A stretch of 64,000 bases of DNA from Thermanaerovibrio acidaminovorans DSM 6589 (lineage in GTDB: Bacteria; Synergistota; Synergistia; Synergistales; Synergistaceae), in NCBI RefSeq assembly GCF_000024905.1, contig NC_013522.1, positions 682,001 to 746,000 on the forward strand, read 5' to 3'. Of this stretch, positions 28,589-50,352 are shown piece after piece. The translations under genes were made by a program, and so were the position numbers. A model generated the notes under the pieces. That model did not search any database and was not told the DNA's origin. It worked only from the letters and a program-made list of their open reading frames with translations. Every line of letters starts with the position of its first letter. Position 1 is the first letter of the stretch.

Positions 28589-29446
28589 TTGCAGGATAGG
28601 CTTGTCCTCGGAACTGCACAGCTTGGAATGGTTTATGGAGTTGCAGGAGGCGAAGTTCCTTCCTATGAGAGGGCTTCTTGCCTGTTAAAATCCGCCTGGG
28701 AGGCAGGAGTTCGAATTCTGGATACGGCGCGCCTATATGGTGAGTCGGAGGATTTTATAGGTAGGTTTATGTCGGATACCTCGTTTTTTTTTAATGTAAT
28801 AACAAAGATTTCTGGATCTCGGGATGATATGCAAAAGCAGTTTCAAGTATCCCTTAGTAGATTAAATTTAGATTCTGTTTATGGGCTGATGTTGCATCAC
28901 GGAAAGCTTCTATCGGGTCCACACGCTAGATCCATCGTGTCTTTTATGTTGGATCAGAGGGATAGTGGCAGGGCTAGAAAGGTTGGTTTCTCCTGTTACG
29001 ATCCTGATGAAGCTCTGGCGGCGATCGATGAATTCAAACCGGATGTGGTTCAGATACCATTAAACCTGATGGACCGGCGGTTCATCGCCTCTGGAGTTCT
29101 TCAGAGGCTTAAGGACATGGGGGCTGAGGTGCACGTTAGATCCTGTTTTCTCCAGGGGCTCATGCTAATGGAGCCCCAGTTGTCGTCCGAAAAGGTTAAA
29201 GGGGTGGCCCCTTATGTGGAATCCGTGTGGCGCAGGGCAAAGGATCTTGGGGTATCTCCCATGTCCTTGGCTCTCTCCTTCTGCCTCTCCCAGCCTCAAG
29301 TTGACCTTGTGGTTGTGGGGGTAGATTCCCCGTCTCAATTAATGGAAATTTTAAGAACCCCCATAATAAGTGCTGGACAGGAAATTTATAGGGGGCTTGA
29401 GTGTGATGATTTATCGATCATAGATCCTAGGTCATGGTCAAGATAG
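28589..29446 (+). CDS. Aldo/keto reductase
   Basis: 285 residues from TTG 28589, 6 bases after GGAGGG; the upstream open frame lies in the terminator. Aldo/keto reductase pattern: LVLGTAQLGMVYG (N-terminal strand), RILDTARLYGESEDFIG (catalytic Asp-Tyr region), KVGFSCYDPDEA and VVGVDSPSQLMEIL at the NADPH-binding end. First gene of the glycan island, unusually AT-rich for the window (for example TTTTTTTTAATG near 28785). Probably reduces or epimerises a sugar intermediate; substrate unknown. Overlaps nothing once the next gene is started at 29458. Confidence 0.85.
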   Translation: MQDRLVLGTAQLGMVYGVAGGEVPSYERASCLLKSAWEAGVRILDTARLYGESEDFIGRFMSDTSFFFNVITKISGSRDDMQKQFQVSLSRLNLDSVYGLMLHHGKLLSGPHARSIVSFMLDQRDSGRARKVGFSCYDPDEALAAIDEFKPDVVQIPLNLMDRRFIASGVLQRLKDMGAEVHVRSCFLQGLMLMEPQLSSEKVKGVAPYVESVWRRAKDLGVSPMSLALSFCLSQPQVDLVVVGVDSPSQLMEILRTPIISAGQEIYRGLECDDLSIIDPRSWSR

Positions 29447-43191: not shown

Positions 43192-43222
43192 CCTCATGTG
43201 GGGTATCATACTCCACATGAGG
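43192..43222. promoter_or_regulatory. 31-bp palindromic operator candidate between divergent genes
   Basis: Arms CCTCATGTGGGGTAT (43192-43206) and ATACTCCACATGAGG (43208-43222) around a single C: 14 of 15 pairs match. On the minus strand the centre contains TATGAT, a plausible -10 of the symporter gene; the left arm overlaps its Shine-Dalgarno. A GntR-like dimer site is conceivable from the GTATnATAC core. Confidence 0.7.
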
Positions 43223-43251
43223 ATATTCACCATGAAGCGGGGAGATTTTCT

Positions 43252-44457
43252 ATGATGCAGAAAATTACGTTATCTAAACTGCTTGCCGTATGGCTCCTGG
43301 TCCCCTTGTTCCTGGTGGTCCTGGCTGACCCTTCCATGGGGACCAGCGGGGAGGATCTGACGGCCCTCAAGGAGGGTTGGGGATGGCCGGTGGTGGTGAT
43401 ACCCCCCAAGGGGGGCTGGGGCTCCCCCGAGGGGGACTCGGTGAAGTGGGCGCTGCGCACCGCCGAGATGGAGGTGTCTCTTAGGCACGGGGGGGTGCAC
43501 GGCAGGGACGTGGTCTTCATGTACCCCAACCTGAACGGCCCCGAGGACGCGCTGAAGCGGCTCCAGATATGGAGGGCCATTGGGGTCGGGGTGATACTCT
43601 GCTTCGACCAGGGGCCCATAATGGAGGCCCTGATTCGGGCCTGCAGGGAGAGGGGGCCTTCCCTGATCCTATCCGATGGGGAGGATATCTCCCTCCGGTC
43701 CCCCTCCGGCCCCCCCTGGCGGTATCTGTTCTCCCTCGGATTCTTCAGGAACTACCGGGCAAACGCCCTGGCCCAGTTGGCCACCAGGGGAAACCTGAAG
43801 CCTGCCATAATTTCCGACAGGTACGACCCCGACATGGAAAGCGGAACCGAGGCCACCTATCGCCTGCTGTCCGGCCGCTTCCGGGGGTTGAGGACCTTCT
43901 GGCTCATGGGGCGAGGGGACGTCAACTTCCGCTACAGGCTGGCGGAAGCCTCCGCCGATGGGGCTGTGGTGATCGTAAGTTGGCTGGACTCCCTGTCCTC
44001 CGTGTCCCTCTGGAGGACCGCCAAGTCCTACAAGCTACCGGTGGAGATATGGCACGCCGCGCCCCCGAACCACCAGATCCTCAAGGAAGCGGACGGCCTC
44101 CTCTACGTGGACGGTGACCTCCTCCTGGCCAGCAGGACCAAGGAGCTCAACGATCTCCGGTGGAAGATAATAAGGACCACCCGCCGGGAGGTCCGGGACC
44201 TGGTGATGGCCGGCAAGTCCTACGCCATGGGGGTTTGGGTGATAAGGGCCCACGAAACCGCGGGGACCAATCGGGCGGACGTACTGGTCTCCCACCTGGC
44301 CTCCACCAGGGAGGTCCCCCTGCTGGGGGAGATGCTAAGCATCAATCCCGTAACCCACAGGCCCCTAAAAAGGACCTTCGGGGTCATCCGGGTGAGCGGA
44401 AAGGCCCCTAGCCTCCATAGTACCCTGTCCATAACGTCAAATTCGGTGGAGGAGTGA
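43252..44457 (+). CDS. Exported type-1 periplasmic-binding-fold protein
   Basis: 401 residues from ATG 43252 (7 bases after GGGGAGA). N-terminal signal peptide (KLLAVWLLVPLFLVVLADPSMG, residues about 8-28, given as LLAVWLLVPLFLVVLA). The rest follows the alternating strand-helix order of LivJ-type binding proteins: KWALRTAEMEVSLRHGGVHGRDVVF, GVGVILCFDQGPIMEAL, PSLILSDGEDISL, PAIISDRYDPDMESGTEATYRLL (quoted in parts), VVIVSWLDSLSS. It could be the binding protein missing from the liv operon 2 kb away, or a sensor. Moderately sure of the fold only. Confidence 0.7.
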   Translation: MMQKITLSKLLAVWLLVPLFLVVLADPSMGTSGEDLTALKEGWGWPVVVIPPKGGWGSPEGDSVKWALRTAEMEVSLRHGGVHGRDVVFMYPNLNGPEDALKRLQIWRAIGVGVILCFDQGPIMEALIRACRERGPSLILSDGEDISLRSPSGPPWRYLFSLGFFRNYRANALAQLATRGNLKPAIISDRYDPDMESGTEATYRLLSGRFRGLRTFWLMGRGDVNFRYRLAEASADGAVVIVSWLDSLSSVSLWRTAKSYKLPVEIWHAAPPNHQILKEADGLLYVDGDLLLASRTKELNDLRWKIIRTTRREVRDLVMAGKSYAMGVWVIRAHETAGTNRADVLVSHLASTREVPLLGEMLSINPVTHRPLKRTFGVIRVSGKAPSLHSTLSITSNSVEE

Positions 44458-44477: not shown

Positions 44478-44495
44478 TTGTTAACCTTTTCTCAA
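44478..44495. promoter_or_regulatory. Rex-like site upstream of the DRTGG/hydrogenase-like operon
   Basis: TTGTTAA (44478-44484), CCTT, TTCTCAA (44489-44495): 12 of 14 arm bases match TTGTTAA-N4-TTAACAA. It lies about 50 bases before the first gene. TTGTTT (44460-44465) 17 bases before TAACCT may be the promoter it overlaps. Confidence 0.45.
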
Positions 44496-44545: not shown

Positions 44546-44908
44546 ATGAAGCTGAGGGATATCGTGGAGGCGATCGATGGCAGGGTCCTTTGCTGTGAGG
44601 ACAGGCTTGACCAGGAGGTCGGTTCCGCCTACGCATCGGACCTCATGAGCGATGTGCTGGCCTTCTGCAGCCCCGGGGCCCTTCTGATAACGGGACTCAC
44701 CAACATTCAGATAGTGAGGACCGCCCAGATGCTGGACCTCTGCGGTGTGATCTTCGTGAGGGGCAAAGCCCCCCAGGACGACACGGTCAAGCTGGCGGAG
44801 TCCAGCGGCATACCCATAGTTCTCTGCGGTCACAGCATGTACATGGTCTGTGGCGAGCTCTATGCCAAGGGGCTGCCCGCCTGCCACCTTCCCAGCGAGG
44901 GGGATTAA
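44546..44908 (+). CDS. DRTGG-domain protein (first copy)
   Basis: 120 residues, ATG preceded by GGGAGGAG. MKLRDIVEAIDGRVLC and the later ALLITGLTNIQIVRTAQMLDLCGVIFVRGK (as ALLITGLTNIQIVRTAQML and CGVIFVRGK), ESSGIPIVLCGHSMYMVCGEL follow the DRTGG domain plan, found in bacterial phosphotransacetylases and CBS proteins and probably ligand-binding. First gene of a five-gene operon; a paralogue lies at 46701. Confidence 0.8.
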   Translation: MKLRDIVEAIDGRVLCCEDRLDQEVGSAYASDLMSDVLAFCSPGALLITGLTNIQIVRTAQMLDLCGVIFVRGKAPQDDTVKLAESSGIPIVLCGHSMYMVCGELYAKGLPACHLPSEGD

Positions 44909-44914
44909 TCAGCG

Positions 44915-45343
44915 GTGGACGTGCCGGTCAGCTTGGAGTACAGCGTGGAGGGGGATGACTTTCTGGCCGCCGGGGAGGCATCGAACAACATCAAGGAGAC
45001 CCTTAAAATGTTGGGGGTCCCTTCCCCCATATGCAGGAGGGCTGCGGTGGTGACTTATGAGATGGAGATGAACCTGGTGATCCACGCGGGAGGCGGCACG
45101 CTGAAGGCCATGATATACCCGGACAAGCTGGAGATCCTGGCCATAGACCAGGGGCCCGGCATACCGGACGTGGAGAAGGCCCTCCAGGAGGGGTGGTCCA
45201 CCGCCCCGGACCACATAAGGGAGATGGGCTTTGGCGCCGGGATGGGGCTCCCCAACATCCGTAAGAACTCCGACATCTTCGAGATCCAGACGGAGGTGGG
45301 CAGGGGGACCACGGTCCGGTCGGTGATCGCCTTCAGCGCCTAG
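44915..45343 (+). CDS. RsbW-like anti-sigma-type ATP-binding protein
   Basis: 142 residues from GTG 6 bases after the DRTGG gene. GHKL ATPase boxes: N box VVTYEMEMNLVIHA (about 45-58), G1 box IDQGPGIPDVEKAL, G2 box GFGAGMGLPNIRKN, and a GRGTTVRS end. Proteins of this group are serine kinases or ATP switches in partner-switching systems. No cognate STAS protein or sigma factor is adjacent; its partners may be the flanking DRTGG or hydrogenase-like proteins. Confidence 0.88.
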   Translation: MDVPVSLEYSVEGDDFLAAGEASNNIKETLKMLGVPSPICRRAAVVTYEMEMNLVIHAGGGTLKAMIYPDKLEILAIDQGPGIPDVEKALQEGWSTAPDHIREMGFGAGMGLPNIRKNSDIFEIQTEVGRGTTVRSVIAFSA

Positions 45344-45388
45344 CGGGGGTTGTATAATCGACTCATACGAAGCCGAGGGGTGGTCCTC

Positions 45389-46693
45389 TTGTCTCACAGC
45401 GTAAGGATATTCGAATCCGCCTGTAAGGGGTGCGTGAACTGCCTCAAGTCCTGTCCCACCGAGGCCATCCGGGTGGTGGACGGGTCAATACGGATCCTCA
45501 AGGACCTCTGCATAGACTGCGGCGAGTGTCTCCGCACCTGCGGGAAGAAGGCCTTGGGGCTGGAGGAGGACGACTGGGACATCATAAAGTCCCACACGCC
45601 GGGCATCCTGGCGGTGGACCCCACGTTCTTCGCCCAGTTCGGGGCCTATTGGCATCCCTCCATGGTCATCCAGTGCCTTAGGGAGTGGGGGTTGGACATG
45701 ATAGTGGATCAGGCCCCCAGGGCCTTCGACCTGGCTGCCTACGCGGTGGCCAAGTCTATTGAGATGGCCTCCCGGGAGCAGCTACCCTTAATATCCACCT
45801 ACTGCCCGTCGGTGGTGCGCCTCATCCAGGTCAGGTTCCCGGAGCTCATCGGCCGACTGGTGACGGTCCAGAACCCCCTGGACATAATGGGGGACCTATG
45901 GCGGATGGAGACCGGAAGACGGGATCCCATAACCCTGCTGGCCCCGTGCCCGTCAAAGATAACCCTGGTCCGGTGCCCCGTGTCCCGATCCAGTAGCCCC
46001 TTCCAGCACGTGGTGTCGGTCCGCAAGGTCACACGACAGCTCCTGGCGGCGGGCCCCCAGGTGGCGGACAACCTGCCGGATCCCACCAACAAGAGGTGGC
46101 TCAAGTGGGCCCTCCGGGGCGGCGAGGCCCGGCACGTTAGGGCCTTCTCCTCGAAGCCCATAGTCACCCTGGCGGTGTCGGGCCTTAGGAATACCCTGGA
46201 CCTGCTTCAGGACCTGGAGCTGGGGAGGTTGTCGGGGGTGGACTTCGTGGAGTGCCGGGTGTGCGACCTGGGGTGCATAGGCGGCATAGCGAACGCGGAG
46301 TCCCGTTTCCTTGCCAGCCTTAGGCTCCAGCCCCTGTCGGCCCCCTGGGACATCTCCCCGGAGGAGAGGGAGGAGATAGCCGCCCTGTACGATCGGGGCA
46401 CCTGGGCCCTTGAGATGCCGGTGCAACCCAGGCCCAGGCTCCCGCTATCCCAGGATCTGACCGAGGCAATGGCCAAGCTGAAGGAGATGAAGGCCATCTA
46501 CGCCCAGCTGCCCCACATAGACTGCGGCTCCTGTGGGCGCCCCTCTTGCAATGCCATGGCGGAGGACATAGTCCGGGGAGAGGGGGAGATCACCGACTGC
46601 ATATTCAAGCTCCGGGACGAGATATCGGACCTGGCGGGGAGGATAGCCGCCCTCTCCAAGAGCGTTCCCCACACCATGAAGGGAAGGAGCTGA
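45389..46693 (+). CDS. Fe-hydrogenase large-subunit-like iron-sulfur protein
   Basis: 434 residues from TTG 45389 after GAGGGGTGG. N-terminal two [4Fe-4S] motifs: CKGCVNCLKSCP (about 10-21) and CIDCGECLRTCG (about 39-50). The middle is the Fe_hyd_lg_C fold, but its H-cluster loops are altered: TYCPSV instead of TSCCPxW, APCPSKITL instead of MPCxxKxxE, ECRVCDLGCIGG instead of ExMACPGGC. A C-terminal [4Fe-4S] domain (HIDCGSCGRPSCNAMAEDIV) and a helix end it. It is therefore likely a redox sensor or electron carrier, not a standard hydrogenase. T. maritima has a similar protein beside its bifurcating hydrogenase. Confidence 0.85.
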   Translation: MSHSVRIFESACKGCVNCLKSCPTEAIRVVDGSIRILKDLCIDCGECLRTCGKKALGLEEDDWDIIKSHTPGILAVDPTFFAQFGAYWHPSMVIQCLREWGLDMIVDQAPRAFDLAAYAVAKSIEMASREQLPLISTYCPSVVRLIQVRFPELIGRLVTVQNPLDIMGDLWRMETGRRDPITLLAPCPSKITLVRCPVSRSSSPFQHVVSVRKVTRQLLAAGPQVADNLPDPTNKRWLKWALRGGEARHVRAFSSKPIVTLAVSGLRNTLDLLQDLELGRLSGVDFVECRVCDLGCIGGIANAESRFLASLRLQPLSAPWDISPEEREEIAALYDRGTWALEMPVQPRPRLPLSQDLTEAMAKLKEMKAIYAQLPHIDCGSCGRPSCNAMAEDIVRGEGEITDCIFKLRDEISDLAGRIAALSKSVPHTMKGRS

Positions 46694-46700
46694 TCCGCCT

Positions 46701-47036
46701 TTGAAGGTCAAGGAATTGATAGATCACCTGGACTGCCGGCTACACGCGGAGGGTAGGCCGGATGAGGACGTCTACCGCGGGGTGGCGGGGGATCTCCTAA
46801 GCCACGTGATGGGGGCTGCCCCCGAGGGCTCCTGCTGGGTCACCATCCAGACCCACGTCAACGTGGCGGCGGTGGCGGTGCTGAAGGAGATGCCCCTGGT
46901 GATCCTGGCGTCGGACCGGGAGCCCGCCCCGGACCTGGTGGAGCGTTGCTTGAAGGAGGGCATATGCCTCGTCTCGACCCCCCTCTCCATCTTCGAGGTC
47001 TGCTCCCGGCTGGGTAATCTTGGGATAGAGGGTTGA
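46701..47036 (+). CDS. DRTGG-like domain protein (second copy)
   Basis: 111 residues from TTG 8 bases after the previous stop. MKVKELIDHLDCRLH, AGDLLSHVMGAAPEGSCWVTIQTHVNVAAVAVL (as AGDLLSHVMGAAPEGSCW and QTHVNVAAVAVL), PLSIFEVCSRLGNLG parallel the first DRTGG protein of the operon. Its stop overlaps the PHP gene start (TTGATG). Confidence 0.75.
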   Translation: MKVKELIDHLDCRLHAEGRPDEDVYRGVAGDLLSHVMGAAPEGSCWVTIQTHVNVAAVAVLKEMPLVILASDREPAPDLVERCLKEGICLVSTPLSIFEVCSRLGNLGIEG

Positions 47037-47815
47037 TGGGGCTTAGACCTTTCAAACTGGACCTTCACGTTCATTCGGTCCTCTCCCCCTGCGGGGAGCT
47101 GGAGATGGGCCTGAGCGACATCGCCCGGCGGGCGGCGGAGGTTGGCCTGGACGGACTTGCCCTGACGGACCACAACGCCTGCGCCAACGCGGCGGGCCTG
47201 ATCGAGGCCGCCCAGGAACTTGGCCTCTGGGTTATACCCGGTTGCGAGGTCCAGACCGAGGAGGACATCCACGTGGTGTGCCTCTTCCCAACCCTGGGCT
47301 CCGCCATGGATTTCCAGGGCTGGACCTGGAACCTGCTGAACCCGGTGGCCAACGATCCGGACGTTTTCGGTTACCAGCTGGTGGTGGACAAGGAGGGCAA
47401 CATCTTGGACCAGGTGGACACCCTCCTGGTACAGGGGATCCGGGCCGGGGTGGACCAGGTCCTCCTGGAGGTGAGGCAGCGTGGTGGCATCACCATCCTG
47501 TCCCACGTGGACCGTCCCTCCTTCTCCTACCCGGCGGTCTTGGGGCCCATCCCTCCAGATCTTCCGGTGGACGCCATAGAGATATCCTGGAGGGCCTCAG
47601 ACCAGGAGGCGGAGCGCATAAGGCGGTCCCTGCCGCACCTTCCTTTCCTCCGGTCCTCGGACTCCCATTGCCTGTCGCACCTCTCCGCCCAGCGGTGCAC
47701 CACCTTTCTCATGGGGGACCTGTCCTTTCCGGAGCTGCGCCTGGCCCTCAAGGGGCAGGAGGGCAGGGGTATCCTGGCCCCCTACAGGTTCCCGTCGGAT
47801 TTGGAGGTGAGGTAG
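47036..47815 (+). CDS. PHP-domain phosphoesterase
   Basis: 259 residues from ATG 47036. PHP metal motifs: KLDLHVHSVLSPCGEL (HxH, residues about 6-21), LALTDHNACANA (D-H), VIPGCEVQTEEDIHVVCLF (E and H), TILSHVDRP and FLRSSDSHCLSHL (DxH). Such domains hydrolyse phosphate esters or nucleotides. Last gene of the DRTGG/ATPase/hydrogenase-like operon, followed by radA after one base; perhaps removes a phosphate in the same signalling circuit. Confidence 0.9.
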   Translation: MGLRPFKLDLHVHSVLSPCGELEMGLSDIARRAAEVGLDGLALTDHNACANAAGLIEAAQELGLWVIPGCEVQTEEDIHVVCLFPTLGSAMDFQGWTWNLLNPVANDPDVFGYQLVVDKEGNILDQVDTLLVQGIRAGVDQVLLEVRQRGGITILSHVDRPSFSYPAVLGPIPPDLPVDAIEISWRASDQEAERIRRSLPHLPFLRSSDSHCLSHLSAQRCTTFLMGDLSFPELRLALKGQEGRGILAPYRFPSDLEVR

Positions 47816-47816
47816 G

Positions 47817-49169
47817 TTGGCGCCCAAGACCTCTTCCCGATACCGGTGCTCCAACTGCGACTTCGTGAGCCTCACCCTGGTGGGGCGATGCCCCTCCTGT
47901 GGTTCCTGGGGTACCATGGAGAGAGAGGAGATCCTGCCCGTCTCGTCCGCCCCTTCCGGGGGGCTACCCAAGCTGGTCACCCTTGAGGAGGCGCCGCCGG
48001 AGAGGCGGATCCTGAGCGGCCTTCCGGACCTGGACCTGGTTCTGGGGGGCGGCTGGCTCCCCGGTGGGGTGGTGCTCCTGGGGGGCGAGCCGGGGGTGGG
48101 GAAGTCAACCCTTCTGTTGCAGTCCTGTTCCGCCGTGGCCCAGGGGGGCACCAAAGTGGTCTATGTCTCCGGAGAGGAGACCCCGTCCCAGATAGCCTCC
48201 AGGGCTAAGAGGTTGCAGTTAACCTTGGGGGAGAACTTCAAGGTCCTGGTGTGCGATGACGTCATGAAAGCCATAGGGGCCGCGGAGGCCCACGGGGCGG
48301 AGCTCCTGGTGGTGGACAGCGTCCAGGCGCTGAGACATCCCGATGCCTCCGGGTGGCCCGGCTCGCCCAACCAGGTGAGGGCGGTGGCGGAGAACGTCAT
48401 AGGCTTTGCCAAACGTACCGGGGCCTCGGCGGTCATGATAGGCCACATAACCAAGCAGGGAGCCATCGCGGGCCCGAAGGCGCTGGAGCACCTGGTGGAC
48501 GTGGTCCTGGTCTTCTTCGGGGAGCGCACCTCCAGGAACCGGCTGCTGAGGGCGGAGAAGAATCGCTTCGGTGGCACCGAGGAGCTCGGGATCTTCCAGA
48601 TGTGCGAGCGAGGTCTCGTGCCCGTATCGGATCCCAGCGCCCTATTCTGGGGCGAGGACGAGGGGGTGGCGGGGGTGGCCATGGGGGTCCCCATGGAGGG
48701 CTCAAGGCCCATCCTGTCCGAGATCCAGGCCCTCACCTGTCAGTCCCCATACCCCTATCCCAAGAGGGCCTCAAAGGGTATAGAGCTGAACAGGCTTCAG
48801 TTGCTCATGGCGGTCATGGATCGTCGATGTGGCATGTCCCTCAGGACCAGCGACGTGTACCTGAACGTGGCGGGGGGGCTGGCGATCCAGGATCCCGCAG
48901 TGGACCTGGCGGTCTGCGCCGCCATAGCCAGCTCCGTGGAGGACGTGCCCCTGGACATGAAGGCTTGCTTCATCGGTGAGGTGGGGCTGGCGGGGGAGGT
49001 CCGGCCGGTTCCCAGGATGGCCCAGCGGGTCAGGGAGGCGGAGCGCTTCGGTTTTAGGAGGTTCGTGGTGAGCGCCAAGGACCTGAAGGCCGATGGTTTA
49101 GACTGTTCAAGGGATGATATCATACCGGTTAGGAACGTGAGGGAGATGGTCAAGCTAGTGCTGGGCTGA
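47817..49169 (+). CDS. radA: DNA repair protein RadA
   Basis: 450 residues from TTG. Zinc finger Cys11-Cys14/Cys25-Cys28 (CSNC, CPSC), Walker A GGEPGVGKST (89-98), RadA-specific KNRFG (248-252), and a C-terminal Lon-protease-like domain (about 280-450). RadA helps branch migration in recombination. Start codon is one base past the PHP stop. Confidence 0.97.
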   Translation: MAPKTSSRYRCSNCDFVSLTLVGRCPSCGSWGTMEREEILPVSSAPSGGLPKLVTLEEAPPERRILSGLPDLDLVLGGGWLPGGVVLLGGEPGVGKSTLLLQSCSAVAQGGTKVVYVSGEETPSQIASRAKRLQLTLGENFKVLVCDDVMKAIGAAEAHGAELLVVDSVQALRHPDASGWPGSPNQVRAVAENVIGFAKRTGASAVMIGHITKQGAIAGPKALEHLVDVVLVFFGERTSRNRLLRAEKNRFGGTEELGIFQMCERGLVPVSDPSALFWGEDEGVAGVAMGVPMEGSRPILSEIQALTCQSPYPYPKRASKGIELNRLQLLMAVMDRRCGMSLRTSDVYLNVAGGLAIQDPAVDLAVCAAIASSVEDVPLDMKACFIGEVGLAGEVRPVPRMAQRVREAERFGFRRFVVSAKDLKADGLDCSRDDIIPVRNVREMVKLVLG

Positions 49170-50326: not shown

Positions 50327-50352
50327 GGGGGGATCCCGGATCCCTCCCTTTT
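50327..50352 (+). terminator. Terminator between stomatin-like gene and leuS
   Basis: GGGGGGATC (50327-50335) pairs with GATCCCTCC (50339-50347; one G-T), followed by CTTTT. Confidence 0.75.

Follow-up and report, generated by a model that had tools for sequence, protein, structure and literature searches.

Group D proteins of the [FeFe]-hydrogenase type have been described beside bifurcating hydrogenases and a kinase-like ATPase (PMC8163306, PMC3561251, PMC3608648). TamHydS of Thermoanaerobacter mathranii, which belongs to group D (M2e), takes up a diiron site (PMC8163306, PMC10407848), and sensory enzymes of groups C and D are reported to have the motif Cx2Cx4Cx16C (PMC8163306). A 2026 study of TamHydS regards the identification of interaction partners as critical for clarifying its signalling mechanism (PMC13104023). 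The present analysis concerns a five-gene block of Thermanaerovibrio acidaminovorans DSM 6589, DR1-HAT-FEH-DR2-PHP, which lies on the plus strand at 44546-47815 of the window, that is, of the whole 64,000-nucleotide (nt) stretch that was analysed (NC_013522.1, positions 682,001 to 746,000). DR1 (44546..44908, 120 amino acids (aa)) is a stand-alone DRTGG domain protein, HAT (44915..45343, 142 aa, GTG start) a SpoIIAB/RsbW-type GHKL ATPase/kinase, FEH (45389..46693, 434 aa from a TTG start) a group D (M2e)-like [FeFe]-hydrogenase homologue, DR2 (46701..47036, 111 aa, TTG start) a second stand-alone DRTGG-type protein assigned by homology to DR1, and PHP (47036..47815, about 260 aa, start at ATG 47036 or TTG 47033) a PHP-family phosphoesterase.

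The hydABC cluster of Halanaerobium hydrogeniformans, Halsa_1862-1871, is listed in the order unidentified open reading frame (ORF), anti-sigma factor/kinase, two Fe-S/hydrogenase-like genes, PHP, NuoE, kinase, ferredoxin, HydB and HydA, and the block is given no function there (PMC4237134). In NiFe-HydABCSL (NiFe-Bfu) of Acetomicrobium mobile, the hisK-like gene and hydD are reported not to encode subunits of the holoenzyme (PMC9304861). The neighbourhood of a group D protein, an ATPase and a bifurcating hydrogenase is already known, and one publication has printed the gene order, with no function proposed. In a literature search, from whose coverage most subscription papers fall out, no publication was found that considers the five genes together as one unit, connects them with [NiFe] and formate versions, or reports carriers lacking HydF.

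The block is best read as a redox-regulatory unit for HydABC-type (Bfu) bifurcating complexes, in which FEH would be the sensor, HAT and then the DRTGG proteins would carry the signal, and PHP would reset it; we consider this reading as open to error as to confirmation. It is based on the anatomy of the block, its conservation and co-occurrence, the cysteine and active-site pattern of FEH, and the absence of HydA and HydF from many carriers. The five ORFs follow head to tail with gaps of 6, 45 and 7 nt and then a 1-nt overlap (TGATG), where the 45-nt gap between HAT and FEH assumes the TTG start at 45389, which is backed by homologues, in a frame that is open from 45350. ORF positions and Pfam matches thus bear out an earlier note on this DNA, made from its letters, which had described five genes at short spacing on one strand.

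The block is conserved across the phylum. In a survey of 151 Synergistota genomes, 74 were matched by FEH, two of them only through a PAS-bearing paralogue, which leaves 72 carriers. Of the 46 Synergistota loci that were inspected, 44 have the five genes in unbroken order, with FEH identity down to about 45%; the exceptions are L104, which ends with its contig, and L048, which lacks DR2 and PHP after FEH. The surroundings vary among loci and include radA, histidine genes, and hyd or fdh enzyme operons. Outside Synergistota, the same order is found at 32-34% FEH identity in one Bacteroidota and one Clostridia record. In the Parabacteroides distasonis record (L080, NZ_OY725779) a second GHKL gene comes after the block; in the Subdoligranulum variabile record (L081, OY725842) the block is divergent from hydC-HAT2-hydD-hydB-hydA. 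PLSDB lists both records as plasmids, yet gyrA or core operons are present on them, and they are probably mislabelled chromosome fragments. Plasmid records outside Synergistota gave matches in Parabacteroides, Subdoligranulum and Ruminococcus albus, a scan of genome contigs with one block protein found only Thermovirga, and the viral contigs scanned held no match. The earlier note had named a lack of co-occurrence across genomes as a result that would refute its idea; the survey was run, and the idea survived it. Its reading as a conserved operon of sensor-, kinase-, ligand-binding- and phosphoesterase-like genes that has no described mechanism is supported.

FEH matches a Fer4 pair (PF13237), Fe_hyd_lg_C (PF02906, 67 bits) and a C-terminal FeS domain (PF04060), and no PAS domain is found in it by Pfam. 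The 16 cysteines of four [4Fe-4S] clusters are invariant in all 28 aligned Synergistota sequences. They are Cys25/28/31/35 and Cys54/57/60/64 of the two N-terminal clusters, C152, C200, C305 and C309 of the [4Fe-4S]H cluster, and Cys392/395/400/417 at the C-terminus, which form an exact Cx2Cx4Cx16C. With two N-terminal [4Fe-4S] motifs, an H-domain and Cx2Cx4Cx16C, and without PAS, the architecture is that of group D (M2e). The diiron pocket is altered: in CpI numbering, C299, the proton-relay cysteine, is replaced by Tyr and M497 by Arg in 28/28 sequences, and the Lys of the CxxK motif is retained in 22/28. Synergistota FEH does not have the small residue (Ala) at C299 and the pocket for [2Fe]H that are used here as a mark of group D, while the Subdoligranulum protein has Ala at the C299 position. 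By its predicted features FEH is classed as group D-like, not as a hydrogenase. Its predicted structure is of low confidence (pLDDT 33). In the tree, FEH proteins of the block and PAS-bearing HydS-like proteins form separate groups; the support for Parabacteroides with Synergistota FEH is 1.0, and the Subdoligranulum member is poorly placed (0.18).

The PAS-bearing HydS-like paralogue (ORFs of about 571-684 aa) is found in loci L069-L078, and a SpoIIE phosphatase gene lies beside it in every locus read. In five genomes (G029, G043, G087, G105 and G122) it is the sole Fe_hyd_lg_C protein below E 1e-30 and there is no HydF match, so its own H-cluster is questionable. No second protein of this type with a PAS domain was found in the T. 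acidaminovorans genome.

The block is linked to bifurcating enzymes by its position in relatives, where it lies beside HydABC/Bfu operons in at least 14 loci. In eight loci of the [NiFe] type (L061, L063, L090-L092, L097, L098 and L102) it runs into an enzyme operon of the order NuoE, GHKL, 2Fe-2S, HydB, NuoG-like, [NiFe] small and [NiFe] large subunit, which follows directly in four of them and after a formate transporter and a MobA-like gene in L090 and L091. Formate dehydrogenase is the catalytic part in three loci (L093, L094 and L096), and in L053 a formate dehydrogenase set, divergent from the block, is split at one point that we infer to be a selenocysteine codon. [FeFe] HydABC adjoins the block in three loci, downstream in L106 and L108 and divergently in Subdoligranulum. 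In T. acidaminovorans itself the block does not adjoin a bifurcating-enzyme operon: the hydF-hydC-hydB-hydA cluster lies at 156.6-162.5 kb of the same chromosome (hydC-hydB-hydA at about 157.9-162.5 kb), some 564 kb away. The earlier note was correct that radA and none of hydA, hydB or hydC follows the block, and its comparison with blocks that flank hydABC is supported; its notion of a stand-alone system holds only locally, since relatives keep the block beside [NiFe], formate dehydrogenase and [FeFe] bifurcating operons. Given this adjacency in relatives and the distant hyd cluster here, the block is a movable companion of HydABC-type (Bfu) enzymes, and in T. acidaminovorans it has become detached from them.

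Two further genes recur in these neighbourhoods. HAT2, the second GHKL protein, is the hisK of NiFe-Bfu operons and has a MutL-like ENS N-box (L061 10985-11557, L080 14432-14965); it is found with the block in Parabacteroides too, although no hyd genes adjoin there. A FocA-type formate/nitrite transporter gene (L010 9590-10432) lies beside hydA in the T. acidaminovorans genome, and such a gene recurs beside the five-gene block in relatives (L053, L060, L062 and L079).

Gene content over the surveyed genomes agrees with this placement. A HydB-like subunit is encoded in 70/72 FEH carriers vs 46/79 non-carriers (Fisher p 3e-9; p 6e-4 after removal of an over-sampled genus), where the p values are not corrected for phylogeny and are too small because the genomes are related. 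HydA is found in 34/72 carriers vs 56/79 non-carriers, and no statistical link between HydA and FEH was seen in the 151 genomes (odds ratio 1.1 without the dominant genus). HydF is present in 37 of the 72 carriers, and in 35 of them neither HydA nor HydF was found, including genomes estimated to be 99% complete (G010, G018, G019, G042 and G047). The absence counts are approximate, as they rest on a first-look filter and the genome scan with PF13581 missed the HAT of the block itself; the absences of HydA and HydF nevertheless hold across many genomes. With HydB in 70/72 carriers and both HydA and HydF missing from 35/72, the block tracks the bifurcating NAD(H)/ferredoxin core and not [FeFe] chemistry. 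This is an argument that redox state, not H2, is what this branch of FEH, at least, senses.

HydF is required to build the diiron site. An H-cluster is therefore unlikely in many FEH carriers, given the Tyr and Arg at C299 and M497 and the absence of HydF, and loss of the H2-activating diiron site is likely in T. acidaminovorans FEH itself. These data also bear on the best of the alternatives, in which FEH carries an H-cluster, binds H2 as a genuine group D sensor and passes the signal via HAT and the DRTGG proteins to control the hydrogenase. FEH shares the architecture of TamHydS, including Cx2Cx4Cx16C and the lack of PAS, and TamHydS has changed residues and still binds an H-cluster (PMC8163306); both HydA and HydF are encoded in T. 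acidaminovorans, the CxxK Lys is mostly kept, and the GGE motif (E259), invariant in all 25 aligned sequences, may match the group-D-specific Glu E252 of TamHydS (PMC10407848). The bulky invariant Tyr and Arg vs the Ala and Leu of TamHydS, the adjacency of the block to [NiFe] and formate enzymes, and the 35 carriers without HydA and HydF count against an H2 sensor, which is weakened as a default reading and which we regard as unlikely.

The other proteins of the block have features of a signalling unit. HAT matches HATPase_c (PF02518, 28.0 bits), its best NCBIfam relative is SpoIIAB, and a profile comparison with the PDB returned only the anti-sigma F factor SpoIIAB (E 6e-11). The N-box E49xxxN53, D78xGPG, GFGAGMG and GT motifs are invariant, so that the N-box, G1 and G2 are intact, and the Glu and Asn of the N-box align with those of SpoIIAB, where they serve in catalysis and Mg binding, respectively. 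HAT can thus be assigned as a putative anti-sigma-type GHKL kinase with an intact ATP site.

DR1 matches PF07085 at 31.2 bits (cut-off 25.2), and its motifs DLMSDVLA and TGLTN...RTA are invariant in 28/28 sequences. Its model (pLDDT 72, from a two-sequence alignment) has the DRTGG structure 2ioj as best fold match in the PDB, followed by the DRTGG domains of a peptide ligase and a pyrophosphatase, and both profile and fold model place it as a DRTGG protein. DR2 scores 16.1 bits with PF07085, under the cut-off, yet it is clearly homologous to DR1, and its orthologue in Parabacteroides is above the cut-off (29.3 bits). DRTGG is a regulatory ligand-binding domain. DR1 and DR2 share Asp32, Ser35, Thr49 and Ala60 without exception across three phyla, and Ser35 of DR1 lies in the predicted structure at the start of a helix that follows a strand. 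This position recalls the phosphorylated Ser of STAS proteins, although Ser35 may simply bind ligand.

PHP matches PF02811 (41.5 bits), and its complete set of metal ligands (HxH, DH, E, H, H and DxH) is invariant in 27/27 sequences. Enzymes of the PHP family usually act on nucleotides or small phosphoesters, and to our knowledge this is not a known phosphoserine phosphatase family. The nearest named kin of the block protein are TrlF-type proteins, endonuclease Q and nucleotide phosphatases, and this kinship with nucleases and nucleotide phosphatases favours a nucleotide-like substrate over phosphoserine.

The protein contacts, phosphorylation, signal and output of the block are what we infer in the following scheme. 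FEH keeps its four [4Fe-4S] sites, while the H2-activating diiron site has most likely been lost in this lineage, and it would respond to how reduced ferredoxin or the NAD(H)/ferredoxin core is, and not to H2. The state of FEH would control HAT, which would act via DR1 and DR2, either as phospho-acceptors or as receptors of a nucleotide-type ligand, and PHP would remove the phosphate or degrade the ligand. The output would be regulation of the synthesis or activity of a bifurcating hydrogenase or formate dehydrogenase. T. acidaminovorans ferments amino acids with H2 as the only reduced product, and its growth improves with methanogens (PMC3035242), which makes redox or H2 control physiologically plausible. 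A bolder form, in which a redox sensor that has the [FeFe]-hydrogenase fold but has abandoned H2 chemistry, with only [4Fe-4S] clusters, drives a new GHKL-DRTGG switch with PHP reset, re-used for [FeFe], [NiFe] and formate-type bifurcating complexes, is put forward tentatively, and the balance leans against it.

Several points weigh against a redox-regulatory unit. The association with HydB rests on related genomes, and the complex does not require the block, since the 46/79 genomes without FEH that have HydB do without it. HydA and HydF are both encoded in T. acidaminovorans, so that by gene content alone FEH may carry a [2Fe] site. In the DRTGG proteins the conserved Ser and Asp may have a structural role or bind a ligand, and the output is a guess because the block has no DNA-binding or sigma partner.

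The block could instead be an assembly or repair apparatus for bifurcating complexes, with FEH as a Nar1-like Fe-S carrier, HAT as a chaperone-like GHKL ATPase and the rest as accessory proteins. Nar1/NARF are eukaryotic kin of [FeFe] hydrogenase that have the Fe-S cysteines and have lost the diiron residues, and FEH is like them in both respects. Nearly all FEH carriers have the HydB core, HAT2 is encoded inside enzyme operons, and hisK and HydD are reported to lie outside the NiFe-Bfu holoenzyme (PMC9304861). The profile of HAT places it on the anti-sigma kinase branch, the DRTGG domain is regulatory, and HydB also occurs in the 46 genomes without FEH, and assembly or repair is on these grounds improbable.

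No STAS protein, PP2C/SpoIIE phosphatase or sigma factor is encoded in the five-gene block, and the one STAS and the one strong SpoIIE of the genome stand together with their own HATPase at 192-196 kb (L011, G000:C1 192397-195887), the only canonical partner-switching kit found in the T. acidaminovorans genome; canonical partner switching is thus not encoded in the block. Of the partner-switching circuit proposed in the earlier note, the SpoIIAB-like ATPase with intact ATP motifs stands, and the canonical form does not. That the SpoIIAB-like HAT might still control a sigma factor by cross-talk with this distant set of one STAS, one HATPase and one SpoIIE is very improbable, as the set has its own HATPase, the block lacks all three partner types, and PHP is not known as a family of phosphoserine phosphatases.

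Upstream of the block, a candidate Rex-type operator, TTGTTAA-CCTT-TTCTCAA (TTGTTAACCTTTTCTCAA), lies on the plus strand at 44478..44495, about 50 nt before DR1, with 2 mismatches to TTGTTAA-N4-TTAACAA. Only two distinct Rex-like sites of this quality occur in the 1.85 Mb genome, the other being the 18-mer at 28788-28805 of the window (TTTTTAATGTAATAACAA, also 2 mismatches). A comparable 18-mer is found at the same place in a genome of the same genus and in several other genera of the family, and a Rex-type regulator is encoded in the T. acidaminovorans genome. A backward control pattern also gave a match in the search, and the tentative site, which may equally be a promoter, is kept as a lead only.

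Downstream, radA (Sms; 47817..49169, plus strand, TIGR00416 449 bits), a neighbour outside the block, begins 1 nt past the PHP gene and probably shares its transcript. A terminator-like hairpin at 50327-50347, downstream of radA and after a stomatin-like gene, is the first plausible terminator between genes in this direction. On the other side, a periplasmic-binding-protein-like gene (43198-44457), with branched-chain amino acid transporter genes nearby, immediately precedes the block in about half of the loci; it has no Pfam match here, and its orthologue in the same genus (L043) is Peripla_BP_6. As a neighbour in only part of Synergistota, it was rejected as a member of the block.

For a group D-type sensor, the block supplies four candidate partners in strict order, in at least three phyla by the records examined. 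Control of bifurcating enzymes decides electron disposal in anaerobes and syntrophs, which makes the idea useful beyond this genome.

Among described systems, SpoIIAB/RsbW partner switching shares the GHKL kinase motifs with HAT and differs from the block by its STAS antagonist, PP2C phosphatase and sigma factor. Group C HydS with a SpoIIE phosphatase, seen in R. albus (L083) and as the paralogue in L069-L078, is a related Fe-S/H-domain protein beside signalling genes, but it has PAS, a PP2C phosphatase neighbour and a different operon. NiFe-HydABCSL of Acetomicrobium mobile has the same make-up as the enzyme operon behind the block in the eight [NiFe] loci, and the accessible part of PMC9304861 treats the NiFe-Bfu enzyme and not the five upstream genes. 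The Halanaerobium list matches the order of block and hyd genes, as compared by annotation only (PMC4237134); there the block and hyd form one operon, whereas in T. acidaminovorans the block is separate and followed by radA. TamHydS differs from FEH by Ala at C299 and Leu at M497 (PMC8163306, PMC10407848), where FEH has Tyr and Arg. Unlike TamHydS, FEH occurs in many carriers without HydF and HydA and also beside [NiFe] and formate enzymes, and it lies far from hydABC in this genome. FEH and TamHydS share two N-terminal [4Fe-4S] motifs, the H-domain, Cx2Cx4Cx16C and the lack of PAS (PMC8163306, PMC10407848, PMC13104023), and the TamHydS gene has a kinase-like ATPase nearby and a bifurcating hydrogenase downstream of it, a setting like that of FEH.

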